In this document: positions 31,085-62,810 of the stretch, one piece after another | How positions within the stretch are numbered: position 1 is the stretch's first letter | Layout of the letters: each line of letters starts with the position of its first letter | Assembly (NCBI RefSeq): GCF_963678975.1 | Contig: NC_089279.1 | Location: 29,365,525 to 29,429,524 of the forward strand | From: Dysidea avara | Lineage: Eukaryota > Porifera > Demospongiae > Dictyoceratida > Dysideidae | Direction: 5' to 3' | Length of the DNA: 64,000 nucleotides | Made by a program: the position numbers and the translations under genes | Notes under the pieces: model-generated | What the model was told of the DNA's origin: nothing | Database searches by the model: none | Seen by the model: the letters and a program-made list of their open reading frames with translations, nothing else

Positions 31085-42610
<11,526 letters not shown>

Positions 42611-42650
42611 ACTCAATCCTTCTTGACTCGATGACAGCTTGTGCTAGGCT

Positions 42651-42676
42651 CACGTGTTTTCGCACTATTGCACGTG
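42651..42676. promoter_or_regulatory. paired CACGTG E-boxes upstream of TRAP-5
   Basis: CACGTG at 42651-42656 and 42671-42676, starts 20 bp apart, 41-66 bp upstream of the TRAP-5 ATG. On the other side a possible plus-strand leader exon ends at a gttagt donor at 42803, so the region may be a two-way promoter. Confidence 0.6.
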
Positions 42677-43239
42677 ATGCAATTGATCGACTGGACCTGC
42701 CTGCTTGTAAATTTTGGAATTCATCAACAAAACCTTACGACGTGAATTACAATTCGTCAAACACAACAGAACTGTCGCCAGCAGCGGCAGCAAGATCGCC
42801 AGGTTAGTCAGTATTCGTGTAGCTATGTACAGTCTAGCATGCAATCCGGCATAGCCACCATTTGAGCATAGTGAAAGTCTTGTAGGTAAATCAATGTCTA
42901 TCTTATTTCATAACTGTATATACGTATAACAGCTGTACTAATTATACGAATGAGCTAACCGAAAGCTGGCCACCAGCTATGGCTATACCGCACACATGCG
43001 ATCACTTGACTACTCTGTGAATGCTATCCCATTAGGGACTCATGAGTCATATTATATAGTATGGAGCTATAACTAAAATACATGTAGCTACCGACTGCTA
43101 CCCTAACAGGAGGCTTTACCACAAAAATAATAGAACATATGAATGCAATCTTTTAATTACTGTAATTTGATTTAGCATAGTTCATAGTGACATTTGCATT
43201 TGCAGCTTGTAAATGCTTACGCATGTACAATATAACAGC

Positions 43240-44191
<952 letters not shown>

Positions 44192-45376
44192 ATGATGTCA
44201 CATTACTACTCAGTTAATGAAGATGATGATGTGCCAGTGTTAAACAAGTTACCACAACAGTACGGAACTGTAGAGTGAGTGCTTGGTGATGGGTTAAATA
44301 TTTAACTTGTTCCCAGGTGTACCTCTGTATACCAGTGTGTACCAATGACCATATATAAGACATTGAGATTGGGAGAATGGGCTGGAGGGCTGTAGCCTTG
44401 AGACCTGACCCTTAATCTCTCATGTGAGATCATGTCGATTGGGTCATGGTAAATGTGTACCCCAACATTTATGATAAGGCTCTGGCTGGTATAATTGGTG
44501 GTATGCCAACTTACCCCACACCAGAAGCCCTATACTGATATTACGATTCCTCCTAGCTGATATGCTACAGTGCAACCCATGTCACATTAACCAGCCATAG
44601 TTTGGTATTATGAGTTAGTGGAAAGTAAGGATGGGGAGGGACCTTAGGGTGGGATAAAACGTTCCATCCAGCACTACAAAAATTTAGTGATACTGCTGCT
44701 CTTTAGCTGCCACTGCTACCCTGCTATAGCATAGAATGATCTAGAACAGGCAGGATGTTACATATGCTACCACCTCAAACCTGTTGTTGATACCTTCTAA
44801 TGAATACCACAATGTGTAATGATCAAGCTAGCTCTATCGACAGTTGTTTACTGAAACCCTGCCCACATGGTATTTAACCTGGGTCCCATAGACTAATATG
44901 TTACTATGGCCACCTTCAAGTTAACACTGTTTAACCTTCGAATAAACTTGTAATAGATGTCCAGATTTTTATCTGCTTCAATTCACTATCTGTAGCCTGC
45001 AAACTTTCTGTAAAGGTTTAATTATGTCTACCACAAAGCTGTAATTAGCTAGTTGGTACCATTGAATGTATATTTTGAAGCAATGGATTAGTTCCCATTC
45101 AAAGTATGATCAATTTATTCTAATACAAAGATTTGTGTGCAGCAATATATACAGTAACTGGTGCTGATGTCAAAAGACTTTATATATCTAAAATAACTGT
45201 AACATGCTTATACTTATATCTCCAACTCTGTTGCTGCGCCAGATGTATTAACCTACATCTTCCTTACAGAGAAGACTTCAATGAGCATCAGAGGTGTTGT
45301 TTTAACAGAAGATGCTTCTTACCCTTCATCATCATTATCATCGCCTTACTGTTTGTGATGGTCATTGCCACTATAA
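44192..45376 (+). CDS. two exons encoding an acidic tail and a transmembrane segment; possible 5' end of TRAP-6
   Basis: Exon A, 44192-44274, follows a tttttag acceptor and ends at a gtgagt donor. It encodes MMSHYYSVNEDDDVPVLNKL followed by PQQYGTV. Exon B, 45270-45376, lies between the acceptor ttccttacag and the donor gtgagt. It continues in frame as EEDFNEHQRCCFNRRC, then FLPFIIIIIALLFVMVIATI, a strong membrane segment with positive charges on its N side (cytoplasmic N terminus, type II). Exon B ends one base into a codon, exactly the phase needed by the first TRAP exon of TRAP-6 at 51865 (or 51847). The joined frame would be 375 residues. The tail carries YGTV and a possible acidic-leucine sorting signal. 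The alternative is that exon B reads on to a stop at 45459 as a separate small protein, with aataaa nearby. Confidence 0.55.
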
Positions 45377-45485
45377 GTGAGTGTGAGAATCGTGTGCTTT
45401 GGTATGTAGAATACTACACTGTGCTGCTCAATGGAATAGAAATAAAAATATACACATAGCCACATTTCTAGTGTGTGAGTGTATT

Positions 45486-45931
45486 CAATGGCGGATCCAG
45501 GATGGGGCATTTGGGACAAATGCCCCCCTCCCCCCCCCCCAACTCAAGCCCTGAGCCATAGCTAGCCACTTTTTTGATAGAAATACTAGACAGATCTATA
45601 CACCTTGTCAGACCAAAATAACTCATGAAAACTGTATATCACCACCATTTATTGCAAAGTCAAGGTATAACAGCTGTCAGTTGTCACCCAGCTACTTTCA
45701 TATGCAGTAAGCACTGCTAAAAATAATTATCATGTTGCTTGTAACCTTTTAAAACAGCTTTTTAGACTTTACAACCATCTGCAAAGGCCACAATGACAAA
45801 AATCATCCTACTAAGGAGTGATCATTGCTGCTTAAAAAATACAGCAACTATCAAGATAATCTGCTCTCCCCAACCACCAAAACTTAGCCTGTTTGTGCCC
45901 CTCCCCTTGCCAGCTCCTGGATCTGCCCCTG
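45486..45931. mobile_element. non-autonomous DNA transposon, GGCGGATCCAGG ends, 5-bp TSD
   Basis: Left end CAATGGCGGATCCAGGA and, inverted, right end CAGGGGCAGATCCAGGA. The duplication gtatt lies on both sides (45481-45485 and 45932-45936). It belongs to the same family as 11136-11474. Confidence 0.8.
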
Positions 45932-46209
45932 GTATTGGTAGTTAAGCTTGAAAATTTATTGAACTTATCTTCTTCTGGGCAAGGGTTAAGGGCATAAAAA
46001 GGGTTTCACCTTTTGAAATTTGCAGTTATGGGCTTGCAGCAGGAAAACCATTGGTCATACAGAAAGTGTAGTAACTAACATGAGTTTTACTTTTGATATC
46101 TCAGAGGTATATATGTATATATAGGGAGAACAATTTTAAGGGTACATGAGTTTCATAGTTGGCCACAGGGAAGAAAAATATTCTTTATATAGATCGAATT
46201 ACTCTAACA

Positions 46210-46387
46210 TACTGTAAGTTGCTTTTTTTTCATTGTAAAATAATTTTCGTATACAAAATTTGCACGAAAATCTCTTGCACGAAAATGTTTATACAAGATC
46301 GAACTACTCTAATAGAGCAGTCATTCACGTAAATCATACGAAAATATTTTTACATTTTGTTGCACGAAAATAAAGCGAATTACGGTA
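46210..46387. mobile_element. MITE with TACCGTAATTCGCTTT ends (copy 1)
   Basis: The right end, inverted, is TACCGTAATTCGCTTTA. The left end is diverged (tactgtaagttgcttt). The interior repeats cacgaaaat and has a CTCTAATAGAG motif in its centre (46297-46326). The second copy is at 52608-52804. Confidence 0.7.
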
Positions 46388-49300
46388 GAACACTCAAGTG
46401 TACTCTAATAGAACACTCCCACAAGTTGTATTCATACTGGGGTAAATATAGTATAAATGTAGGAACGTTAGTTTTATAATCTTTAAGGTTTTTATTACAG
46501 AGGGTCAGAACTTATGTTTGGATCAGAAGTCACTCATTGTTTGCACATTTACTGTAGCCTCTTCAGTAATATCAGGAGCTCATAAGCACCACTCGTGCCT
46601 TCAGCGCTTATAAGCTCCTGGCAATATGTAACTTGATTTTGGAAAACCACAGTTCACTTTTGAGGCACGCAAACAAGTTTTAAAATAACACTAGACCGAA
46701 ATGTCTACACTATCTGACTAACAATTTTCACACTTTCCAGGTAGTGATTACAACAGTGTGTAAAGCATGCATGCTCCTTTTAGGGGTGTCTGGGGGCATG
46801 TCTTCCCCCCCACCCCCCTCCAGAAATTTTTTGAGAAATAGGTGCTACAAGATTGAATCTGGTGGCACTTTTTGCAACAGTGTTGTCAATTAAAATCTTT
46901 CAGGTACGACATAAGTACAATGGATCCTTCCACCATATGATATAGCTGCCAGTTTGGAAACCATGACGATATTTAATCACATGATACACTTGTGATGTCA
47001 CATAAAGTAAATTAGGTAATTATTGGAAAAGCTCTGCCCCTCTCATCTGAAGTTGGGGGGCTCCAGCCTCTCTAGCCCCCACCTTCTGCTGCCACTAAAT
47101 TTATATGTTCAGAATTATATTTTAATATCAAGACTCACGGTAGTGAGTCGCGCGGCCAGTAAAGCAGAAACGCGCGCCGCAGACAATAAATGACGCGACC
47201 ACTACGTGAGGATTTTACAAGAACGAACGTTGTCAAATTCGGCCTTCCTGTAATCCACCCGTCACTTACGCTATCCCTCTGAAACTCTGGAGTTGAACTC
47301 ATCGTGTCACTAGTAACTACCACACAAGCAGTGAAGCAAATCCACGCCGATTGTTTCGTGATCGAGGTTGCCGAGATCAAAGGGGAAGTTTCATTTTTTT
47401 CTTTCTTTTTTTTTTATCGCATGCGGTTAGACGCAACCGCAGGTGTATGTCTTGCGTTCCTTTGTGCATTCTGAACATTGATCGCCCTGTTATCGCTTCA
47501 GTATTCACTCAATCACCTCAAGATTCACATCATCGATTTCACCATACATGATTACCCTACAGTCGTGATTTCAGTACCAAACAAAGTTTCAGTCGTCCTC
47601 AGTCGACCTAGAGGCCAAATACAAATCCCAGATTGTTGTTTTCTGCAATACTCGCTTGGCATGTAGGGCAATGTGTCTTTAAACTGTTCTAAAAGTTTCG
47701 TTCAGATTGAAACATTTGTTTTCGAGAATGGCTAGTTTGAAATTTGAATTTAGTCGCCCCCATGTCATTTGCTCTCTAAGAATTTTACTCGGAATTTAAA
47801 GAATGACGCAGAGCACAACTGCGGTCACTGGGTATTGATGAACTGGCGCTCTATGTAGTTAATCAGTACATATAGCCACCAAGAAGTGTGCTGCCATAGA
47901 TTATAGTCCATAGATATAATCTATGGTGCTGCATACCATCCTTCGTTTTGAAATTAGTCTCCCCCACATAATTTGTCCTCTAAGGGTGCGGCTTAAAGAA
48001 TGACACAAGAGTACAACTGCGTTTACCAATTGTTGACACAAGCTGTGAGTAATTAGCACATGTAGCTAGCTTAAAAGGAAGTGTGCAAAATCGCCTAATA
48101 CAATTGTCACCATGCATTATTGCATTTTATAGCACCCCCACACAAAATTACACATGTAATTACAACATACAGAGGAGACACATGAATACCAAACACTTTT
48201 CACAACAATAATGTAAGAATTGTACAATAATGACTGTAATATAACTGCTATGCAAATGTTTTCCAGTGGCCCGCCATGGTAGCAAGTCTCACATGATGGC
48301 ATGTATATTCATCCAAACACAATGGGAGTAACGAGTAAGTATGATGGCAACAAGTTGGTATGACTCCATTTGTAGAATCCAGATGAGTGGGTGTGGCTCC
48401 AGTATGTCTAAACAGTTAACAAACATTCCTGTTATAAATACGTGCTAGAGTTGCAATATAATAGTATAGTATTTAAATGCAATAATACATAGTCTCCATT
48501 GCATCACTATCAAACGACACTAAGTGGAGGATATTGTTGCATCTCTAGTATGTACACTCTATCAGTACAACCTGTCTTAATGGCCACTAGTATAGAAAGA
48601 CAACCACTCTTGAAAAGCCAATTCCAATTGAGAATTTATACACTGTTACCTGCTGAATGAGTGAAGGTGGTAATAAACAAGTTCCACCGTAATTTATACA
48701 CGTGATCTGATCCTGTATATTCTGTCAGTGGATGAGATCCACTTGGCCAGGACAAAATGTGACTCAAGTGCCCTGGATGATCCATACTCAACCAACTTAT
48801 GACCCAGTGGCACAATGGAACTGACTATTGATAGAGAATACAATTATATTTATTTCTAAGATGTGTGGATGTGTGGACACATTACAACACATTACATGTA
48901 CATACAAGACATGCTACGTACTGTTTTAGCATTTCAAGTCACCACAATATACACGTACCAGTCAACAATGCTTCATAGTGCCCATCAGTAAACTTGAAGA
49001 AAAGTTACGAAAAATAAAAATTCACATAAGTACAATGAAACCTCATTAATATGGCAGGCTGTGGGACCAAAAAATTTGGCCTGAATAACAAGGTGGCCTT
49101 ATTAATGAGTTCATAAGTAATGCTTAGCTATATTTGGGACCTACTAGAGGTGGCCAATATAATGAGGTGGTCTTATTAAAGAGGTGGCCACTAAGTGAGG
49201 TTTCACTGTACATATAGTTCACAATATTGTGAACAATATTAATGGTTAACAATATACACTGAAACCTGCAGGTCACTTCTTGTGGAAGATTGCTCTCTAC

Positions 49301-50876
49301 ACAAAATGACACATTCAGAGATTGTATTTAGATGGATGATACAGTAACGCATTGTGACTTCAATACTCGTGATGTGTCACTGCTAGGCAGCAACCATATA
49401 CACGGCACTGCCACATCGCACTTGCTCGCACACACAATTTTGCTAAAGATTTTACAAATTGATAATTAAGGGGTGTGGCAACTAGCTGTTTCACTCGCAA
49501 GACTTGTGGCAGCTGTTTCCCTTCTGTACAAGTGGCCACCAAGACAGGTCCACTGTGGATGAAAGCCAGGCATTAGATATTTGGTATTTCATGTGTTGAA
49601 GACATTCCAGGGATTCTGGTAGTCTCAAATCTCACCACAGTTTAACTCAGGCAGTGTTGTGGTCACCACTAAACTACTAGAATGATGTGTTATGTGAAAA
49701 ATATATCCTATGGATAATGACTTCATCACTTTCTTCATCAGGAGATTATAAGCGGGACCAATAGTGAAACTTTTTACACTTGGGGCTGACAGTCAACTGC
49801 CTATGTCTGAAGCAGTACTTTTGGTGCTCTAACAGATTGGCTGCCCCCTTGCTGCCAGCACTCACTGTCTCAAACGCTGTCATACACTAAATCCATCTCT
49901 ATAGCCAGTTAGAACAGCATGCTTCTTACCTTTTTTTAAGGCCGCATAATGCAGCCACCTCTTTAAAAGGCAAGGTCAGAAAATTTTGTCCCTACGGCCT
50001 GAATAATGACCAGTTTTCACTGTACTATTAGTGATTAGTGATCATGGGGGATTATTTATTAAGATACTAAGATATACAAACGCTACAACCTCTAAATATA
50101 GCAGTAAATTTTTTACCCTGGTCCAATGTCTCGTAATAATCGTGACTTCGTGAGAGACTCTACTGTGACAAATACATGTTTATTTATTTATTTATTATTA
50201 ACACTTTACAGTGACCAGCACTGAAGGTCTACAACAACATGTGCTGCAGCCTTAGGATTACCTAACCTAGTTTCATGATATGTGCTAATCGCCTTTTTAC
50301 AATTAAGTTTTACAACACAAATACATGTATAGTTAAACTCACCAATTGCGACTAAATCCCTTCAACACGAAAAGACAAGTAATGAGACAACCTTGGAGAC
50401 AACAGCCACACAAGCCTATTCTGGTGCGTTTATTTAGTAGTAATATAAATTTTAAAGGCGTTTATTTACAACAGGACATAATTACGCGCCCCTCTATTGT
50501 CTCTGTACATACTTGCCTTTTCTTTACTATTCTCATTTCATTTCACAAGATCTCTTGGCAGGGGCGTAGCTTCTTCACTTGAATTAGTCAATGCTTGAAG
50601 TGGATCGAGATACTCTAATAGAACAGTCACATTTCTACAAGTGCCATATTTTTATATTGTAAAGTCTGTAAGTAGCTAGTAATTTAAACTATACAATCCG
50701 ATGCTAAGCAGAAGTTGTAACTATGCTAAATATTGATTGTTGTGTTACAGCTGTTTTATGACTGCTCTAATAGAGTATCTTGATCGTTTCAATGCAGTAC
50801 AAGATGAAAGGCAAAGTGTTGTTAAGGGTTTACTAGTTAAAATGGGTGTTAGTTGGCTGCAGTTGCATGCCACTAA
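46388..50876. other. gene-poor stretch: repeats only
   Basis: No convincing exon. Items seen: a short inverted repeat at 46572-46625 (caggagct...agctcctg); a GC-rich islet at about 47135-47360; a diverged direct duplication, 47737-47850 versus 47945-48055; a palindrome at about 47893-47926; a MITE at 49033-49208; and a repeat at 50176-50275, shared with 15064-15135, preceded by a tttatttattta tract. CTCTAATAGAG motifs are at 50607-50634 and 50757-50786. If TRAP-6 starts at 44.2 kb, all this lies in its intron. Confidence 0.5.
49033..49208. mobile_element. MITE, CARTGAAACCTC ends, TA target site
   Basis: Left end CAATGAAACCTCATTAATAT and, inverted, right end CAGTGAAACCTCACTTAG, both next to TA. 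It is related to the MITE at 6951-7168. Confidence 0.6.
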
Positions 50877-51070
50877 CAGGGCCGTCCAGAGAAATTAGAG
50901 GGCCCAGGGAAAAGAGTTAAAGAGGGGCCCAGGGGCAAGGAAGGGTCTAGATCTTGACTGCTCTATTAGAGTATATCGATCTTTCTTTAAACAGGTATTC
51001 AAGGGGCCCTTTTCGGGCTGGGGCAGGGGGCAAAATACCCCAGTTACCCCCCCTCATGTGGGCGGCCCTG
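50877..51070. mobile_element. hAT-like MITE, 194 bp, perfect 8-bp TSD
   Basis: Ends CAGGGCCGTCC and, inverted, CAGGGCCGCCC. A perfect 8-bp duplication gccactaa lies on both sides (50869-50876 and 51071-51078), as for hAT transposons. It carries one CTCTAATAGAG motif near 50955-50985. Confidence 0.9.
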
Positions 51071-51193
51071 GCCACTAAAATTACAGTTATATTTTAATAT
51101 TCTGTCACTGTAATCTGGGGTTTCTGTCAAAACCATGGAAACTCACCTACTGTTATCAACAGTGCATTGCTTATTCTAACAAAAAGTATTGAA

Positions 51194-51824
51194 ATCCCAT
51201 CCAAAAACAGCTTATAGCTGTAAAAAAAGTGCGCGTCCAAGTAAAGCAGAGTTAACTGCGACAAAAAGTAATGATATCATAATGCGGCCATGTGCAAGGT
51301 GTGCAAGTTGTAAAATTAATATTAGCTAATCAGATAATACAATGTTATTGTTAAAGTGTTAATGAGAACTATGTGATGCTGCTAGTTTTTAAGTGTGTGA
51401 GCATCTTCATAAATGCCACATAAATTTAATTCTCAATAAAGCAATGTGTATAGATTCTCTGATAGTAATAAATAGTTTGAGTTTGGCCACCTTTCCTTTG
51501 TTCGTAGCATTGCTGTATACAGGAAAGGCGGCCAAACTCAAACTATTTATTACTATCAGAGAATCTATACACATTGCTTTATTGAGAATTAAATTTATGT
51601 GGCATTTATGAAGATGCTCACACACTTAAAAACTAGCAGCATCACATAGTTCTCATTAACACTTTAACAATAACATTGTATTATCTGATTAGCTAATATT
51701 AATTTTACAACTTGCACACCTCGCACATGGCCGCATTATGATATCATTACTTTTTGTCGCAGTTAACTCTGCTTTACTTGGACGTGCACTTTTTTTACAG
51801 CTATAAGCTGTTTTTGGATGGGAT
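51194..51824. repeat. near-perfect long inverted repeat: 304-bp arms, 23-bp loop
   Basis: Arms 51194-51497 and 51521-51824 are reverse complements, with only about three mismatches seen by eye. The outer end is ATCCCATCCAAAAACAGC. The same 72-codon frame can therefore be read from both strands, which is a mirror effect and not evidence of coding. No target duplication was found. The right arm ends only 41 bp before the first possible TRAP-6 codon base at 51865. Confidence 0.95.
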
Positions 51825-51864
51825 GTAGATTACTGATTCAATTCAGATACTTTTGTTGTTCTAG

Positions 51865-54800
51865 CATTAGCAGTCACTCTAAATTCCAACAATGATGACG
51901 GAGAGGCTAATTATAAATTGAGCTTTCTTGTAGTAGGAGACTGGGGAGGGAAGTCCTCACCACCATACTACACACCGGCACAGAAAAGTGTTGCTCTTCA
52001 AATGGGCAGAACAGCAGAGGAAATCAACTCACAATTCACTGTGAGTCTTGGGGATAATTTTTACAAAAATGGAGTAACAGACGAAGATGATCCAAGGTTC
52101 AATACTACATTTGAAGTAAGTACACCATATGTATGTATGTTGTTGTTGTGTGCTTATTGGAAATCAAAGCTTAGTCAAAATTTAATCGTCTACAAAGCAT
52201 TAGAGAATTTATGACTATATAGACAGATTATTGCATTGCATGAATGAATGAAGTTATTTTAAAAAGTTTACTGGAGCTGCATGGTAGTTATTGCCTGGGA
52301 AAGGTTTTTACTTGTCACCTTTCACAAATGAAGTGTTTATTACAAACAGCAAATGCAACAACAGCAATTACATAAACCTAATGCTCAACAAGAACGTGTG
52401 CAACAAACATGAGACTTTCCTCTAGACAAAATGTAGTGCCAGTATCATATTAATGCAAGCCATATATGAAGTCGTATATCAAACTACTCCCAAGTTTTCA
52501 CTTGGATATCACAGCAGTGCTAGTTATTAACACTCATCCTCGGTTTTGTCTTGGACTCGTGTCAATAGCTAAGATATTCTACTCCAACTGTTAACCATAA
52601 CTTCCTTTACCGTAATTCACTTTAGTTTCGTGCAAAAAATTTTCGTGATAAAATTTTTCGTGTAAAAATATTTTTGTATGATTATGTGAATGACTGCTCT
52701 ATTAAAGCAGTTTGATCTTATGTAAAAATTTTCGTGTAAGACATTTTCGTACAAATTGTCGCATACGAAAATTATTTTACAATGAAAAAAAGCAAATTAC
52801 GGTATTTATCACACCTAAATTGATGTATACTGAATCTATAACTATACAAAAGTTATACTATTACATGGGATGGTGCAATTGTAACATCTAACAAGACCTG
52901 CCATTTGTTCTCAAAAAAAAACAAAAAACAATCAAAGCTGATGAACAAAAACAACTAGCTCATTTATTTATTACAGTGGAACTTGTCTTAGTGGCTACCT
53001 CTCTAAAAATGACTTAAAAGGACCCAAAGTGAGACTTTCATACACTATTCAACCGATATAAAGTAGCCACCTACTTATTAAGCTCACAAAATCTTGACCA
53101 GCCTATAACAGGTTTCACTGTATAATGCACAGATTAACATAAATTGACAAAAGATATAAATAATAGTTATACGGGCACAATGTGGAGTCTATGAAATTTA
53201 TAAACCCGAAGGCCCGGGCTGTAGCGCACAAGCGAAGCGAGGACGCTACTAAGGGCCTGAGGGTTTATAAATTTCATAGACTCCACACTGTGCCCGTATA
53301 ACTGCTTTAGACTCTATTTCACATTACACTCAGATCACTTACCTCATCCATGGCTGTTTCTGCTGTAGGCTCGGCAAAAGTGTCTGGTTTTCTTGCGATA
53401 ATACTAGCGCCATGGCAACTATGCGTCCTCAAGTGACAAAATAATAGTGCTCGTTACATCACTACACGTGAACAATGCATAGCGATTGGATAAACCTAGA
53501 TTTTGAGCATATGTTATATTGTGCCTGAAGGCGTGGGTATATTAGAAAACAAGGTGGAGTATATGAGATTTATTACCTACCCAAAACAGCCTAAATAGAG
53601 TCTAAATAGTCTTATTGTTGAGTGACACTAACCAGCTGCCGCTTAATGCTGAAGGGAGCTTGCTTTTGAGGCTAGACCTTTGTAGATGTCACTTGGCTCT
53701 TTCATGTAAATAACCATTGCTTTAGTTACAGTCAAACATGCTTAAAATTTTGTGCAAATACTTTCAGCAAAACTTTCACCTATTATTCGCTTCAGTGTTC
53801 CCATTATGCTTGCATTTATACTGCTAGGTTAACAACATTTTAAAAGATTTTAAACAGTGAATGCTCTATTAAACTATTTCACTACAAAGTGACTGTTCTA
53901 TTTGAAAGTATTGACCTAAGAAGCTTAGTACCAGCGGTGTATCTAGGGGTGGGCCTGTGTTCTACCAAAGAATTTTGGTATGTGAGATCGAGATACTCTA
54001 ATAGAACAGTCAATCACTCTATTCAAAGCAGCAATGAAGCAAACTATGCAAGTGATAAATAAGTATTTTATCAGTGGTGTAATATAGTATAGCAGTGTAG
54101 CCCCCAAAATTGGCAATATTGTGCACTTTTTCATAAAACCATGAAACTTTCCACATAAATAGTACTCCTCATGACATGTAATTTTAGATATAGTGCCGTC
54201 ACTGAGTTGACTGTTGGTGACTTATACGGTCGTTTTTATACAGAAAATTGACCATTTTTGTCTTTAACTCCCTGAGGCAGTAATTAACTTGTTCAAAACA
54301 TGGTACCAAACTAAAGAAACAACTTGGTTTTTATTTGAAGTCAATAGGTGATATTATCACAAAGTTATGATCATTTTTACTAGTTGCAAAATTTGATAAA
54401 TTTACCTGCCCTCAAGGTGTGAATTACATGTGGGCAGATAATTATGCATAAATTTATCAAATTTTGTAGCTAATAAAAATACTCATAACTTTGTAATGAA
54501 ATCACCTATTGACTTCAAATGAAAACCAAGTTGTTTCTATCAGCAAGATCTTTTGTTTGGTACCATGTTTTAAACAAGTTAATTACTGCCTCAGGGAGTT
54601 AAGAAAAAAATGATCAATTTTCTGTACAAAAATGGCCATAAAGGTTACCAAAGGTCAAATCAGCGACAGCACTATATCTGAAAATACATGTATTGAGGAC
54701 TACTATTTATGTGGAAAGTTTCATGGCTTTATGAAAAAGTGCACAATTTTTTGGTTGTGCAGCTATTGGTGAAGGGTTTTCATTTTGAACAGGCAGTTAC

Positions 54801-57460
54801 CTTCTTCTTCTTCTTTTTTTTTTCTTTTGGCCCTACCAAACCTAAGAGTCTAGATACGCCACTGCTTGATACAATGCATTGAGTGCTCAATTAAAAATAT
54901 GCCATCAATATCTGTTTTCAAGGAATTAAGCTCCATTATAATATAGTTTGAAATATCTACCTAATAATTATGCATTAATTATGCTGGCATAACAGTCTAG
55001 ACATTATTTGACGCAGGCCAATACAGTGTGGCATACACTATATGTTTACCATGTAGCACTTTGTGTATTAAACCTGATACCTCACATGATACATGCCTTA
55101 ATAATTATGTACATTGTTGTGTGGCATACGTACATGCGGGAACGTGTTACCAATAATCAGCTAGCAACGATACATTATAAAGCTCTTGTGCAACACTTTT
55201 TGCTCTGGTACTTAGTAGTGTGTATGAAACATAGACTATAGAGAATTATAATATTAGTAGGTGGTCTTGTATTTTATGACCAGCAAAAAACTTTGCATGT
55301 GGCAGCTTTACATTAATTTGGAATTGTTCTTTAAATACTTGTCAACATCTTGAGAAAGGTGCTACTACAATGAATAAATGTACTAAAATTGTGAGTACTT
55401 TAAAATTGTTCTATGTATTTGTCATTCATAGAGTGTGTTCACAGCTGAGTCACTCCAGCCAAGGTGGTACATCATAGCTGGTAATCATGATCACAATGGA
55501 AATGTTTCAGCACAAATTGAATACACTAAAAAATCACACCGATGGTATATGCCCAATTATTACTATACTGAGGTAATACTACTACTGCAGTTTGTACTAT
55601 GATGTACAATACATTATATATTCAGATAATTAGAATTCCTGATTCAGGTGTTGCAGTCCAGTTTGTGTTTATTGACACGGAACTTCTTACTAGAGGCAAT
55701 CAGGCATGTTTGCAGCCTGCCACTCAAGATTCTCAGTGGACTTGGATCGAAAACACACTAGCTGCTTCAATTGCACGATGGCTATTTGTGCTGGGACATC
55801 ATCCTGGTAAGATCGTACCAAGCAAATGTTCTGAAGAAGAAATTGCCATACAAGATTCATTACATGTAACTGCACAAAACTTGCACATAGAAATGATTAT
55901 AATTATGTGGTGAAGGGTGCACATTCTTGTGTTATTGCATGCACTGCAGCTGAAACACATGTAAGTCTTGCAAGACTGCAACTACATGTATAAGGTATAC
56001 CAGTTCAGAGTAGGTACAGTACTTGTGCAGGGGCATAGCCAGAAAATCTTGAGAGAGTGAGTGATACAATTTGCCAGCATGTTCTATCTAGGGGTGTGGT
56101 GCATTCCTCGACAGAAAAAAAAATTTTTTTTCAAAAAATCAGACTTCTGAAATTGACTTGAAAGTACTGTTGAATGTTTTATTTGCATACACAGTTGTTC
56201 TATTAGAGTATCACAATCTTAAAAAATGGAGGCAGGGGCTAAGCCCCCTCTAAAACTGGAGGCGTTCTAGCCCTCATGTTACTACACCTATGTAGTATAT
56301 ATTGCCAAGCGTCACTACTTTCATGTGAAGTTTCGCTACTTATTTCACCATCATGTCAACAAAAGTATCTATAATTATAATAAGCCATAGTCTGTCAGGA
56401 CTTATAGGTATAATATAACATAAGTCTCCTACACATTATGTAGCGAACATATTGCTAAAAGCTAACAAATTATTACTGACAATATAAACTTCTATATATA
56501 TATAAAGATATATTATATAGGAACATCATTCAACACATTTTAGTTAGCTTTTGATATTACTCACTTTCCCCATGACCTCAGGTGAACAGACTACAAAGGA
56601 GAGTCAATTATTTTGAGCTATATGTAGCAGGGGAAGAGTAGTCTTAATAATTGAGAAGCACATAAGTACAAAATTATAATAATTATGTCTGTGTAGAGGA
56701 TGGAGAAATGCTTTAAAAGATATTCAGAGAACCATTATGATGTAATGATGTGGTACATAATAACTGTACACTGTATGTATGTATAAACGAGGTATAACAA
56801 GCGTTAAAAAAAAAAAAGTTTGATTGCTCCATTAAACTATTAAGGCACACAACAAAAGCATGTATTTTATTGGTGTTTTGGATATCGTTGTTCAGATAAT
56901 TGACTCTCTACAGTATACATTGCAAAAAGCAGCAATTATTACTTCTGCACTTGATAGTTCACTTTGCTGGTTGTTTATGTGTATAGTTTGGTCAATTGAT
57001 AACCATGGACCCACTCAAGTTTTGGTGGATTGCCTGAGACCTCTACTGATAAAATACAAAGTCACTGCTTATTTTTGTGGACACGATCATACCATGCAGC
57101 ACATCCATGAAGAGGACAGTTCTGTGGAGTATTTTGTGAGTGGAGCTGGTCATAGCATCAATCCTTCACAAACTCATGTAGTACGCACACTTGCATGGAA
57201 TATTCCATTTTTTAATATTTTGTCTTCATAGGGTGATGTGCCTCCACAATCTCTTCTGTTTCACTATGGCTCCTGGGACCCTTTTAAAACTCGAGGTGCA
57301 TTTGCCTACGTCTCCGTTTACCCTGCGATAATGAATGTTACATATGTGGATTATAAAGGTTGGCATGCATTACATGGTTATCACTAATTATTATTCATAA
57401 AAATACATGTGTTTAGGAAATGAGTTGTATTTTTATTCCAAAGAACCAACCAGAAAATGA
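51865..57460 (+). CDS. TRAP-6: tartrate-resistant (purple) acid phosphatase, TRAP exons
   Basis: Exons: 51865 (or 51847)-52115, 55432-55572, 55626-55806, 56987-57180, 57232-57358, 57417-57460. All have GT-AG borders and the frame is open to TGA. Motifs are GDWGGKSSPPYYTPAQ, GDNFYKNGV, GNHDHNGN, GHHPVWS (His-His-Pro for the usual His-Tyr-Pro) and GHDHTMQH. The tail is GNELYFYSKEPTRK. Unlike TRAP-1 to -5, the first TRAP exon has no in-frame ATG: a TGA lies at about 51834 and acceptor-like sequences (ttcag at 51846, ttctag at 51864) follow it. Its 5' exon must lie upstream. The transmembrane exons at 44192-45376 fit by phase. Intron 1 (3.3 kb) is full of transposons. Without the missing exon the catalytic part is about 311 residues, with all metal ligands. 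Confidence 0.88.
52608..52804. mobile_element. MITE with TACCGTAATTYRCTTT ends (copy 2)
   Basis: Ends TACCGTAATTCACTTT and, inverted, TACCGTAATTTGCTTT. The interior is rich in ttttcgtgtaaa, with a CTCTAATAGAG-type motif in the centre (52688-52719). It is the same family as 46210-46387. Confidence 0.8.
52974..53120. mobile_element. MITE, CAGTGRAACYTG ends, TA target site
   Basis: Left end CAGTGGAACTTGTCTTAG and, inverted, right end CAGTGAAACCTGTTATAG, each next to TA. It lies in intron 1 of TRAP-6. Confidence 0.7.
53165..53308. repeat. inverted repeat, about 42-bp arms
   Basis: The arm starting gttatacgggcacaatgtgg is repeated inverted with about one mismatch, enclosing a GC-rich 55-bp spacer. 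No coding content. Confidence 0.85.
53932..54864. mobile_element. hAT-like foldback element, 8-bp TSD with two mismatches
   Basis: Ends CAGCGGTGTATCTAG and, inverted, CAGTGGCGTATCTAG. Flanks cttagtac and cttgatac resemble an aged 8-bp duplication. Inside, two arms (about 54110-54400 and 54440-54760) are inverted copies, for example gaggcagtaattaacttgtt. It carries a CTCTAATAGAG motif near 53983-54015 and lies in intron 1 of TRAP-6. Confidence 0.8.
56030..56300. mobile_element. possible transposon remnant starting CAGGGGCATAGCC
   Basis: The left side resembles the CAGGGGCRTAGC-type ends, and the right side (ggcgttctagccctcatgtt...) is a weak match. It contains a CTCTAATAGAG-type motif at 56194-56221. 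No target duplication was found. It lies in intron 3 of TRAP-6. Confidence 0.35.
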
Positions 57461-57646
57461 CAGAACTCCAGCAAGAAATTAATTACATGAAGAAGTTGAC
57501 TGCAGCATGAAAAATGCACTGCACTTTATACTCTTCAGCCTTCTTTCATATTTAGCTACACTGTAACACTGCAGTATATCATTGTAAACCAGGGACATAC
57601 GCAGGAACTTTGAAAAGGGGTCTCCACTATAACTGAGTGACCGTTA

Positions 57647-57860
57647 TACCGTATAGAGAGAAACTTTGGCAAATCGCTACAAATTTGCCAAAGTTTTACC
57701 CGCTAATTACTCATGCCTGAGATTTGCATCTTTATAGCTATACTATAGATTGAACTTGAATTTGCTCAAGTTTATTTTGTCAAATGCAATTTAACTTGCT
57801 ATTTGCCAAAGTTTATCCCCACCAAAGTTTATCCCCACCAAAGTTTCCCTCTATATGGTA
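57647..57860. mobile_element. MITE with TACCRTATAGAGRGAAACTT ends (copy B)
   Basis: Left end TACCGTATAGAGAGAAACTT and, inverted, right end TACCATATAGAGGGAAACTT. It is the same family as 5821-5995 and lies just past the end of TRAP-6. Confidence 0.75.
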
Positions 57861-58229
57861 TTAGAGTAGTTTATAGTTTATATTGCCTGACTGCTTTATT
57901 AGAGTATCTGAATCTTTTCATCAGAATCATAATTCAGAACAATACTGCAAGTGTTGCTATCATGTGAAAAACTATTATTTAACTAAGATAAAAGTTTAAA
58001 ATGTGTCTTGCTCCATGATAAATTCCAGATTCTGGAAACCTAGAGTAATGTTTCAAGTAGTGTGTAAAATCCGAAGTGGTTTCCTGAAACCCCCCTGGGC
58101 GGGGGTCACCCCTGGGTACACTCCTGTACTAAACTGTCATGTAAAATATATGTGCCACTGCACCTTGCACAGCTGCTGGTTAATGTCAGAACGTGACACA
58201 CATGAGATTAGAGCCAGCATTATGCACAA

Positions 58230-58413
<184 letters not shown>

Positions 58414-58543
58414 ATGCTGCAGATTACTATTACAATGGTGTTCAATTTCTCAATGTGAATAATTATAAAATGCACATGCAGCTGCAGTTGAATATGTCAA
58501 TGCATTTACGTAACTATATGATTGTGCAGCAAAAAGCCTAACT

Positions 58544-59199
58544 TAGGGTTTCCACCACTCAAAATAGGAAGATGCTTCTTTTCATTTTTTCCTGGAGATT
58601 TTCACACAGACCGGCTGACCTTTTAGATAGAAAGAAGTACTAATTTGTTATAGGATTGTATGCAGCATTTGATATATCCAAAAAAAGTGGTCACTTGACC
58701 AAAAATTTCAATAATGGCTGCATTGCATATTGGTCTTGTGGAATAAGAATGTGCCTTCTTTCATTGTTTCTGGCAATTTTTGCACAAACTGATCTTTAAG
58801 ATAAAACAAACAAGCACTAATTTATTATAACTATTGCTTTCAATATCCAATAAAGTGGTCACATAGCTAACAATCCCATGCAGCTATATTGGATGTGCTT
58901 GCTACAGGATGCAGAAATCTTCGTTTATAGGTAAGAAATACAACAGTGGTGTCTTAGATCTCCCTAATGTACAATTATTTTTGAATACGCTGTCCAATAT
59001 AGCTATGATGGGATTTTCGGTCACGTGACCACTTTTTGGATATTTGATGTGTTAAAATTTTGTTGATATTGAATGCCACAAACAATTCAATAATAAACTA
59101 GCACTTTTTTTGCTTTTTATGAAAGGCCACTCTGATTGAAAATCTCCAGAAACATAAAAAAAGAAAACATTCTCCTATTTTGAGTGGAAACCCTACCTA
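58544..59199. mobile_element. MITE/foldback element with TAGGGTTTCCAC ends
   Basis: Left TAGGGTTTCCACCACTCAAA and, inverted, right TAGGGTTTCCACTCAAAATA. Internal parts (ctggagattttca, gtggtcac) also recur inverted. It is about 650 bp with no coding content. Confidence 0.65.
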
Positions 59200-59224
59200 A
59201 ATACAAACTATTTTTCAATTACCT

Positions 59225-59550
59225 GTACCTAGATTTTCAGCCATGATCCATTGTGTAGCATCATTGTTCCTACCTTGAATAGTGTTGGCTTTTACACACT
59301 AACACTTACCTAGATTTTCAGCCATGATCCATGGTGTAGCATCATTGTTCCTACCTTGAATCCTGTTGGATTTTACAGACTAACACTTAACTAGATTTTT
59401 AGCCATGCATGATCCATAGTGTAGCATCATTATTCCTAACATGGATCACGGCTGAAAATCTAGGTAATTGTTAGTGTGTAAAAGCCAACATGATTTACGG
59501 TAGGAACAAGGCTGCTATACACCATGGATCATTCTGAAAATTTAAGTAAG
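59225..59550. repeat. tandem repeat of about 95-bp unit, three direct and one inverted copy
   Basis: A unit built on 'cctagattttcagccatgat' and 'gtagcatcattgttcctac' is present three times in direct order and then once inverted (about 59450-59550). Confidence 0.75.
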
Positions 59551-59947
59551 TTTTACTGTATACATGCACTAGATCAAACCCGGCCTAGTTGTACCGTGTG
59601 CAGCACTGATATAATTAAATTACCTATAGATTAATGAATCCTGCATGTTGGCTAGCTGTTAAGAAACTAAACCATGCAGCATACGCACATTCTATACACA
59701 CAATTACTATAGCACCTGCAGGAAAGCACAAGAGTTATATTAGATGAAGGTAAAGCTTCACACCAGAAATTGCAGCGTTTCTGCCACTGCATGCATGCAT
59801 GCTGTTGCTATATACTTAATTCAGATTTAGCTAATTCAGATTTAGGTACTTCAGATTTAGCAGATATATGCTGCTAACAATGGTGATGGTGTTGTTGCAT
59901 GCACTGATGCTTAATATCATATTCTTATAGAATTGTGATCATAAACA

Positions 59948-60198
59948 TCGTCAAACATGACCTGTTTTCACATCCCATAGTTTTATATGGTTGTCCGTTA
60001 ACAAAGACACAAGTTCTTGATTGTTTGCAAACTGACAATAGGTTTCTAGTGCCCCTCCAGTACATATACAGAGGAGACTGAAAATTACGAACATTGATAA
60101 TTTGTACCTTGTGTTCTGCACATCCATAAGCAAGATAATTTTTTGATGCAGGGTGAACTCGCACCACACAATGCATACAGGTGGCCATACATAAGCTA
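59948..60198 (-). pseudogene. COP1-like WD40 exon fragment, frameshifted
   Basis: On the minus strand one frame gives VHPASKNYLAYGCAEHKVQI then INVRNFQSPLYMY. After a frame change it continues ETYCQFANNQELVSLLTDNH then IKLWDVKTGHV, followed by a stop. The pattern NYLAYGCAEHKV...LVS..TDNHIKLWDV is that of adjacent WD40 blades of the ubiquitin ligase COP1 (FGCADHxVHYYDLRN...SASTDSQLKLWNV). An acceptor-like tcttcag precedes it at about 60199-60205. The blade joint is shortened and the frame broken, so I call a decayed single-exon copy. The family assignment comes from memory of the motif. Confidence 0.6.
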
Positions 60199-60706
60199 AC
60201 TGAAGATTCAAGTATACATGATTTCTTGAAGCAGTTTACCCTGTAGGCATGACAGAAGTTTGGTCTTATTTTACACGAATAATTGGTCATAACTCTGTAA
60301 TCTTGTTCAGATACCACCAAAATTAGTAATGAGATTTGCTTTAATGACCCCTAATTTCAGTTTGATTGGAGTATGCATTAGTGTTTTATGGTGGATTTTG
60401 TAAATTGTGCAGAAAAGTAGAAGAAAAACACGAAGAAGAAACGATCAAAACTCTGGCCACATGTGTCTCAGAAATGGATGGGGTGATGTCCTTCATGTTT
60501 GGTATGTGGACTTCCCTACCTGACAGGAATCTCTACAGCAAAATTAGTTCCAATCGGTTCAGGTACCAATGAGCTACATATGTGTGAGAATCAAGTTTTC
60601 TTTCTTACCGGAAATTTGGCATGCCAGCTTCTTGGGCTACATGACACACTACCATGTGTATTGATATAAATGTACACACCACAATTGCTCTGTTTGACAT
60701 TCATAG

Positions 60707-62810
60707 AGTGTGTTCACAGCTAAGTCACTCCAGTCAAGATGGTATATAGTAGCTGGTAATCATGATCACATTGGAAATGCTGGCGCACAAATTGAATATA
60801 CAAAAAAATCACATCGATGGTACATGCTAAGCTATTGCTACACTGAAGTAACACCATTGTTTACTATAATGGACAATCCCTATATTATATATGATGTTTT
60901 TCAGGTATTTAGAATTGGTTCAAATGTTACAATTCAGTTTGTGTTCATTGACACACAACTACTTACTGCTAGTGATTTAGGATGCTTACCATCTAATGAC
61001 TCAGGTCCTCAGTGGATATGGATTGAAAACACACTAGCTGCTTCAACTTCACTATGGCTATTTGTACTAGGGCACCACCCTGGTAAGAAAATAATTAATC
61101 ATTTATTTTATAACATTACTGTGAGTGCTGTAGGGAAAGTAAAGTACTAAGCATGTTAGAGATGCCCAGGAAAATTTTTGTAACAAGCAAGGCTTTACAT
61201 TATTTATCCTAGTGGATTGAGGCCCAGTACATAAGCATGCTACTTAATAATTCACACTGGTTGCACACTTACACGTGTTGGCAGTATACTGACATGGTCC
61301 AGGTGCAAGTTATCACTAAAACAAGCCTTTTGAGTAGTGCAATCTTTTGGGCGAAAAATTAGAACAGAGGAATGCCCACGATGTGTGCATTGCTACCAAG
61401 CAATGTCATAACTGTGATATAAATCAAACCCGTAGCATTAAATATTATGTTTGTTGGACAGCATTGGTTAGTTGGTTGGCTAGCCAGTTGATCAGTCAGT
61501 CAGTGAGTAGAAACTTTGAATTCTTAATTGTAGAAATCTGCAGGAAGTGTTTTGGGTCAGTTTGAAGGTGTGTTTGCCATTTGCGCCTCCCAGCCAATAA
61601 GACATGAGGGTACTGTAATAGACTGGTTTCTGGTTAATGTGTTTTGGCAAAAGTTGTAAACCTGGCAAAGTTGCAAACCTTCACTGTGTACTTTTCGAGG
61701 ATACAATGGAACCTCTCAACACTTTAGGAAGCAGAATTTTTGGCCCATTTTTACTGTAATGTATAGAGGTTTTCCTCTTCCAGAGGTAACATCAAACCTG
61801 TTGTTGTTGGGACCAATATACTTGTCCTTATTATGAAAGCATTTTCTATTGTGTCCTTAGTTCGACTGTACCTTGATGTTCTTTAGTCCACACAACAGCA
61901 CAAAAAATACTTGAGTAAAACTGATAAATGCAATGTACCTTTGTTTACATTATATAAACATATACATGTTTTTCTCAGATTAAGTGTTAATAAATTATTT
62001 CGGTTGTATGAACATGTTGTAACATTACTGTAGTCTGTAGATTTTCTGTTTGCCTATTCTGTGTTGACTGTTTCTCTTCAGCATTATAACAATATTCGTG
62101 TGTATAATGACCCAATATTGTGCATCATACAGTAATTTTATCTTCCTGGCTTGTATCAAAGTGTGTAGAATATAAACAGCTTCAGTATTTGAAGAGCTTC
62201 AAAGCAATGCTGCCTTTGTAACTGAAGAAAAATATGGACTCAGTTAAATATGAATATGACTACAGTATAAGAATGTGTTTGAGTCCTCCTCTCATTGTTG
62301 TGACTTTTACCTTCACTTGTTAACATGTCCTAATAGTCTGGTCAGTAGCTGAACATGGACCATTAGAAAGTGAGGTGGAGTGCCTCAGACCGCTACTGAT
62401 AGAATACAACGTCACTGCTTATTTTTGTGGACATGATCATACCATGCAACACCTCCATGAAGAGGATAGCTCTGTAGAATATTTTGTGAGCGGAGCTGGT
62501 CATAGTACAGACCCATCACTATGTCATGCTGTATGTATCTCTGTTTGGGATATTTCAGTGTCATTGTATTGTCCTTATAGGATGATGTGCCTCCAAACTC
62601 CGTAAAGTTTCGTTACGGCCCTTGGGACTTCTTTAGTACTCATGGTACATTTTCCCATGTCACCGTTAACTCTACAATTATGAGTGTTACATATGTGGAT
62701 TATGAAGGTTAACATGATTGTGGCTGATTCATATGTTATCACATTTCATTCATTTTGGGAACGACTTGTATTTTTATACCACAGAAACAACCAGAGACAA
62801 AGAAGGATAA
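60707..62810 (+). pseudogene. TRAP-7: TRAP gene lacking exon 1 (or alternative 3' exon set)
   Basis: Exons 60707-60847, 60905-61082, 62337-62530, 62581-62707 and 62785-62810 match exons 2-6 of TRAP-6, with the same phases and GT-AG borders. The frame stays open for 221 residues. Motifs [21 protein letters not shown] and GHDHTMQH are intact. No exon with DWGG and GDNFY was found between TRAP-6 and 60707, so on its own it lacks half the metal ligands. At exon 6 the acceptor homologous to gtttag in TRAP-6 reads ttttg. A downstream ccacag at 62779-62784 restores splicing in frame, giving ETTRDKEG. It is either a partial tandem duplication that is dying or a second set of 3' exons joined to the first exon of TRAP-6. 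Its open frame favours a recent origin or continued use. Confidence 0.75.

Follow-up and report, generated by a model that had tools for sequence, protein, structure and literature searches.

To our knowledge, animal tartrate-resistant acid phosphatases (TRAPs), known as markers of osteoclasts, are viewed as enzymes that are either secreted or soluble in the lysosome, and ACP5 has a cleaved signal peptide and is soluble. The TRAP-6 gene of the sponge Dysidea avara raises the question of whether such an enzyme might instead be held in a membrane: the frame of its first TRAP exon opens at 51837, directly past a TGA, and encodes the domain without a preceding in-frame ATG, and an earlier note had proposed that exons further upstream supply a signal anchor in place of the signal peptide. 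TRAP-6 lies on the plus strand of a 64 kb stretch (contig C8:29365525-29429524), referred to here as the window, to which unprefixed coordinates refer. The proposed anchor exons are indeed present, but they are not confined to TRAP-6, and it is very probable that the gene belongs to a D. avara subfamily of at least four loci encoding type II signal-anchored TRAPs, whose topology, non-cleavage, compartment and activity are predicted from sequence.

The link between the upstream exons and the phosphatase domain came from an NCBI protein, P0001 (Dysidea avara, 428 aa), listed as "tartrate-resistant acid phosphatase type 5-like isoform X2", whose 90% cluster has 5 member sequences. Splicing nine exons of the window gave P0001 with zero mismatches:

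42631..42802, plus strand: exon 0, upstream coding exon of the NCBI model (57 codons and one base)
44190..44274, plus strand: exon A, the acidic tail, MMSHYYSVNEDDD..., with in-frame donors at 44259 (gtacgg) and 44274 (gtgagt)
45270..45376, plus strand: exon B, the tail end, NRRC and hydrophobic anchor; entered in phase 2 and left in phase 1, TATAA followed by the donor gtgagt
51865..52115, plus strand: exon C, the final anchor residues (LAVTL), an acidic linker and the GDWGG and GDNFY motifs
55432..55572, plus strand: TRAP exon with GNHD
55626..55806, plus strand: TRAP exon with LGHHP
56987..57180, plus strand: TRAP exon with GHDH, ending at the NCBI donor 57180
57232..57358, plus strand: TRAP exon
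57417..57460, plus strand: final coding exon and stop

The junction 45376-51865, from exon B to exon C, is present in P0001 and was used in this exact rebuild, and thus the NCBI annotation connects exon B with 51865. The phase-1 end of exon B does suit acceptors at both 51847 and 51865, as had been claimed, but the NCBI model takes 51865 and the other loci described below carry its counterpart, and 51847 was therefore rejected. The letters, GT donors and phases given earlier for exons 44192-44274 and 45270-45376 were all verified; they and the TRAP exons from 51865 onward are bordered by GT-AG and agree in phase, and the joined frame is open to the stop at 57460, giving 374 aa with a donor at 57177 and 375 aa with the NCBI donor at 57180, which adds one Val. 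What had to be revised was the position of exon A. The tail exon exists, but in the NCBI model it is internal, with an acceptor at 44190, exon 0 upstream and the inner donor at 44259, whereas the earlier note had used the donor at 44274, which lengthens the exon by 15 nt in frame and is matched by donors at TRAP-8 and TRAP-9. Three placings of the first P0001 junction encode the same protein, one of them with GT-AG borders (gt after 42802, ag before 44190). Exon 0 lacks a hydrophobic stretch comparable to the anchor, and when P0001 is read up to its catalytic motif, the 19-mer of highest hydropathy falls on the anchor itself (from residue 96). A tblastn search of stretches fetched upstream of the three paralogous loci gave no convincing match to exon 0 (best E 1.3).

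Homologous tail-plus-hydrophobic exons were found at three more loci, that of the D. avara NCBI protein P0002, on contig C6, and those of TRAP-8 and TRAP-9, downstream on C8 at about 75 and 90 kb past the window end. P0002, annotated like P0001 under the generic "TRAP type 5-like" name, reads MRMQNFDNDDDDDDDND...FKRRYFLPWIVIIILFSILLISIILIATL followed by the TRAP domain, and its anchor exon (C6:12194339-12194448; L010 340-449) lies ~3.7 kb before its TRAP exon. In TRAP-8 and TRAP-9 the counterparts of the anchor exon encode DDQFIIEPQEHNFNRRRLYYSITIIALLLIVIVVTI and DDQLIKEPQEHNFKRRRLYYSITIIALLLIVIAVSI, and those of exon A, matched by TRAP-6 exon A at E 9.5e-5 and 2.4e-6 within 10-kb loci, encode MMSRYHSVNYDDD...QYGTV and MSHYHSVNCDDD...QYGTI. 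All four loci have a common plan of an acidic N-terminal tail, an (N/K)RR block, ~25 hydrophobic residues, an acidic linker and the TRAP domain; at each, exon B is entered in phase 2, left in phase 1 and ends in ATAA before gtgagt, and an in-phase acceptor completes the anchor with LAVTL, LVVTL, LVVTL or LIATL. The B-C join was taken from the NCBI protein for P0001 and P0002 and was chosen by homology for TRAP-8 and TRAP-9, there being further in-phase acceptors at each locus. The TRAP-8 and TRAP-9 models keep the catalytic motifs and are open up to the last exon, within which the TRAP-8 model overran its stop (one stop counted); both are predicted genes. The claim that a signal anchor stands in place of the signal peptide thus gains support from the independent NCBI join and from recurrence at three paralogous loci in the same phases.

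The N-terminal regions of the two NCBI proteins also align well beyond chance. When P0001, from the exon A Met, was compared with the first 72 residues of P0002 the score was 87, while block-wise shuffles gave 13 +/- 11 with a maximum of 57, and none of 5000 reached 87. For exons A and B, dN is lower than dS in both of the pairs, out of three, that allowed dS to be computed (dN/dS 0.371/1.493 for TRAP-6 and TRAP-9, 0.089/0.196 for TRAP-8 and TRAP-9; for TRAP-6 and TRAP-8 dN is 0.35 and dS not computable), which counts as support and not as proof because the alignments are short.

It could be argued that exons A and B are a separate small gene and that TRAP-6 has some other first exon, given that the exon B frame stays open past its donor as far as a stop at 45459 and that the B-C intron is 6.5 kb long and contains an inverted-repeat element. 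However, P0001 joins both exons to the TRAP exons, the A-B-C order is repeated at TRAP-8 and TRAP-9 and the B-C order at P0002 with compatible phases, and when the genome was searched with the N-termini of TRAP-9 and TRAP-6, TRAP loci on C8 alone were reached (4 matches each), a result of limited reach in that the C6 copy was overlooked. On the join, the recurrence and the TRAP-only matches we rejected a separate gene, which is scarcely credible. Since the searches overlooked the C6 copy, a distant source of the anchor exons may still exist.

If the exons do belong to TRAP-6, the hydrophobic segment might be an anchor or a signal peptide, and we asked how unusual it is. The segment comprises ~25 hydrophobic residues encoded by exon B and the first residues of exon C. 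Scanning both strands of the 64 kb window for open acceptor-to-donor segments with a 19-mer mean hydropathy >=3.0 and >=2 basic residues at the start returned two acceptor positions on the plus strand, both in the frame of exon B via a donor at 45382 or 45376, and none on the minus strand; as the frame of exon B alone was found, such a segment is rare in the window. We also assembled 195 related proteins from two listings (the best 120 of 1043 and the best 120 of 346), scored the 175 with a recognised GDWGG-like motif and printed the first 70 residues of the other 20, which were left unscored. Among the 175, P0001 and P0002 had the two highest pre-motif 19-mer hydropathies (3.24 and 3.27; next 2.68) and were the only proteins with the tail-plus-anchor plan. 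Their best 19-mers start at residues 96 and 44 and, together with that of the fish protein P0129 (residue 48, hydropathy 2.31), are the deepest of the set; P0129 was rejected as an anchored TRAP, since its long N-terminal extension is followed, from an internal Met, by what looks like an ordinary signal peptide.

That the segment is a signal peptide of unusual form, cleaved after a long N-region and a hydrophobic stretch to leave a soluble mature enzyme as in other animals, would accord with a catalytic domain that is that of secreted TRAPs, and with the five TRAP genes on the minus strand of the window, in which the hydrophobic segment lies within the TRAP exon itself; three of these, TRAP-1, TRAP-2 and TRAP-5, correspond to the NCBI proteins P0003, P0005 and P0006, which start there with a signal-peptide-like sequence. 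Against this, signal-peptide h-regions are usually shorter than ~25 residues, and at all four loci a stretch of about that length follows an N-region at least ~40 residues long that ends in (N/K)RR, with the hydropathies of P0001 and P0002 exceeding those of all other scored relatives. By hydropathy and position neither protein resembles one with a short cleavable N-terminal signal peptide, a long hydrophilic tail preceding the 19-mer, and we consider cleavage quite improbable. All four loci instead have the features of a type II signal anchor, namely a long N-terminal tail and a hydrophobic helix of 20-25 residues with basic residues directly before it and acidic residues after it.

By the positive-inside rule this charge pattern points to a cytosolic N-terminal tail. 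We propose that a type II signal anchor, encoded by the additional 5' exons, takes the place of the cleaved signal peptide, such that the acidic tail would stay cytosolic, with (N/K)RR marking the cytosolic side, the ~25 hydrophobic residues would cross the membrane, and the acidic linker would hold the dinuclear-metal phosphatase outside the cell or in the endo-lysosomal lumen. The catalytic domain of P0001 has sequons at N196, N224 and N407, which agree with a luminal or outside C-terminus. The tails of TRAP-6, TRAP-8 and TRAP-9 each carry two Y-x-x-hydrophobic (YxxPhi) motifs, the first (YYSV or YHSV) close to the start and the second (YGTV or YGTI) close to the end of exon A, and hint at endocytic or lysosomal sorting at three of the four loci; motifs of this kind easily arise by chance, and sorting to endosomes or lysosomes is accordingly a lead. 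The NCBI isoform X2 of TRAP-6 lacks YGTV because the inner exon A donor is used. That the four genes form an anchored class whose tail signals direct the phosphatase both to the surface of cells and to phagolysosomes in this filter-feeding sponge, with the choice of exon A donor removing YGTV so that splicing tunes the site, is an unlikely elaboration.

A variant compatible with a signal anchor is that proteolytic cuts in the acidic linker release enzyme that was anchored at first, so that it exists both membrane-bound and soluble. Lysosomal acid phosphatase ACP2 is anchored and then shed by proteolysis, and both forms exist. The YxxPhi motifs in three of the four tails and the lower model confidence between helix and domain (pLDDT 65 in residues 121-130) favor shedding, while the linker sequence is not conserved, and we regard shedding as possible but tentative.

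Several observations weigh against an anchored subfamily. The anchored form is predicted from genome sequence and NCBI gene models. Sequons occur also in the supposed cytosolic tails (three in exon 0 of P0001 and one in P0002), and the sequon evidence therefore weighs little. The P0002 tail has no YxxPhi motif and has EDEQLL instead. By tblastn the match between P0002 and TRAP-6 exon B alone is weak (E 2.4; 0.049, 0.051), the link being stronger through TRAP-8 and TRAP-9 (5.1e-4 and 3.5e-5 for P0002 exon B, 3.8e-4 and 0.021 for TRAP-6 exon B, each within a 10-kb locus). As listed, P0002 is without nine domain residues (VFSAKSLQS), which the genome encodes. The TRAP-8 and TRAP-9 proteins are absent from the best 120 of 1043 and best 120 of 346 relatives. 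Finally, the search among relatives for N-terminally anchored TRAPs, which the earlier note had advised, yielded a second D. avara protein, P0002, and none from other species: 67 further proteins from a region search included no anchored TRAP, the five with longer N-regions having hydropathies <=2.38. That search was weak, as it overlooked even P0002, and it may have passed over anchored relatives elsewhere.

The domain that the anchor would carry is that of a conventional enzyme. P0001 has a precomputed PF00149 (calcineurin-like phosphoesterase) match and matches the human enzyme at E 1.3e-74, and in a Foldseek search with its model, ranks 1-8 were pig, human and rat purple acid phosphatases (PAP) with target TM 0.89-0.93. 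In an alignment of 56 rows chosen from the 195 proteins, D142, D180, Y183, N218, H305, H340 and H342, which we take to be the seven metal ligands, and H219, at the catalytic His position, are invariant in all 56. The AlphaFold model of P0001 places a helix at 97-130, with pLDDT 94 and 93 in 101-120, and has pLDDT mostly >90 in the catalytic domain and <50 in the tail, which is disordered. By domain, fold and ligand set, then, P0001 is of the TRAP/ACP5 type, and enzymatic activity is predicted. The loop that follows the DT residues of the strand (before residue 287) has 21 residues in P0001 and 24 in P0002, compared with 30 in 30 of the 54 other rows and <=21 in 7 of them, and both proteins have a Cys inside this loop and a Cys at column 323 that the other rows lack; the altered loop may change loop regulation of activity.

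In a tree built from 33 chosen rows, P0001 and P0002 are sisters (support 100/98) and are joined by P0004 (92/78), which has an N-terminus like a plain signal peptide; these three and three other Dysidea TRAPs form a supported group (100/98) nested with Amphimedon, Ephydatia and two further proteins (93/84). The tree and the signal-peptide-like P0004 suggest that, within this sampling, the anchor was most simply gained on the branch to P0001 and P0002.

Among known systems, animal TRAP/ACP5 shares the catalytic domain, fold and metal ligands of P0001, and differs in that a signal anchor and cytosolic tail appear to replace the signal peptide in TRAP-6. ACP2, like the proposed TRAP-6, is an acid phosphatase held in a membrane and carries a Tyr-based signal in its tail, but it has an unrelated histidine-phosphatase fold and type I topology. 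The membrane segment of Plasmodium GAP50 is C-terminal; TRAP-6 has no such segment, the best 19-mer past residue 90 of the earlier note's model scoring 0.98. GAP50 (PDB 3tgh, 'GAP50 the anchor in the inner membrane complex of Plasmodium') is membrane-associated and has the same fold as P0001, with 24% identity in the fold alignment. The plant proteins AtPAP2 and AtPAP9 are also membrane-held purple acid phosphatases, but with the anchor at the opposite end of the protein from TRAP-6: both have a C-terminal hydrophobic motif and AtPAP9 is tail-anchored (PMC8303434). Titles and abstract openings, a partial coverage of the literature with few subscription papers, contained no description of an anchored animal TRAP, and a term search of the main text of the D. 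avara genome paper, which compares a 575 Mb assembly with another, returned no 'phosphatase' (PMC12909245). If the proposal is correct, a TRAP can be converted to a membrane protein by the gain of short 5' exons, and the suggested roles would be to release phosphate locally, to dephosphorylate proteins at the surface or to take part in digestion at a phagosome membrane.

Some other features were also seen. An additional minus-strand TRAP locus (about 3411-5662 in L015 coordinates) has a signal-peptide-like start, MRVFCVLAVLTCLSCVVNG. About 20 bases separate the ATG of TRAP-6 exon 0 (42631, plus strand) from the Met at which the TRAP-5 frame starts on the minus strand (region 42347-42802), a proximity that suggests a bidirectional or overlapping promoter. 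The inverted repeat in the B-C intron (51194-51497 and 51521-51824) has arms of 304 nt that are 99% complementary, and is perhaps a young foldback element; 40 bases separate it (51194-51824) from the exon C acceptor.

Downstream of TRAP-6, TRAP-7 (60707-62707, plus strand) consists of four exons that match exons 4-7 of TRAP-6; they are bounded by GT-AG and free of stops, and the dN/dS of TRAP-7 against TRAP-6 is 0.19/0.60. No convincing first TRAP exon with GDWGG/GDNFY was found for it in 57461-60706 (best E 0.055), and the acceptor AG of the last TRAP-9 exon is TG in TRAP-7. It may be what is left of a TRAP-8-like gene copy truncated at its 5' end; otherwise it may serve exon C, whose phase is suitable, as an alternative 3' half. 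Elsewhere, a long terminal repeat (LTR)-type retroelement on the minus strand (37690-41829) encodes reverse transcriptase, RNase H and integrase domains in a single unbroken frame of 1379 aa, and a long CTG-type trinucleotide repeat occupies about 58230-58412 on the plus strand.

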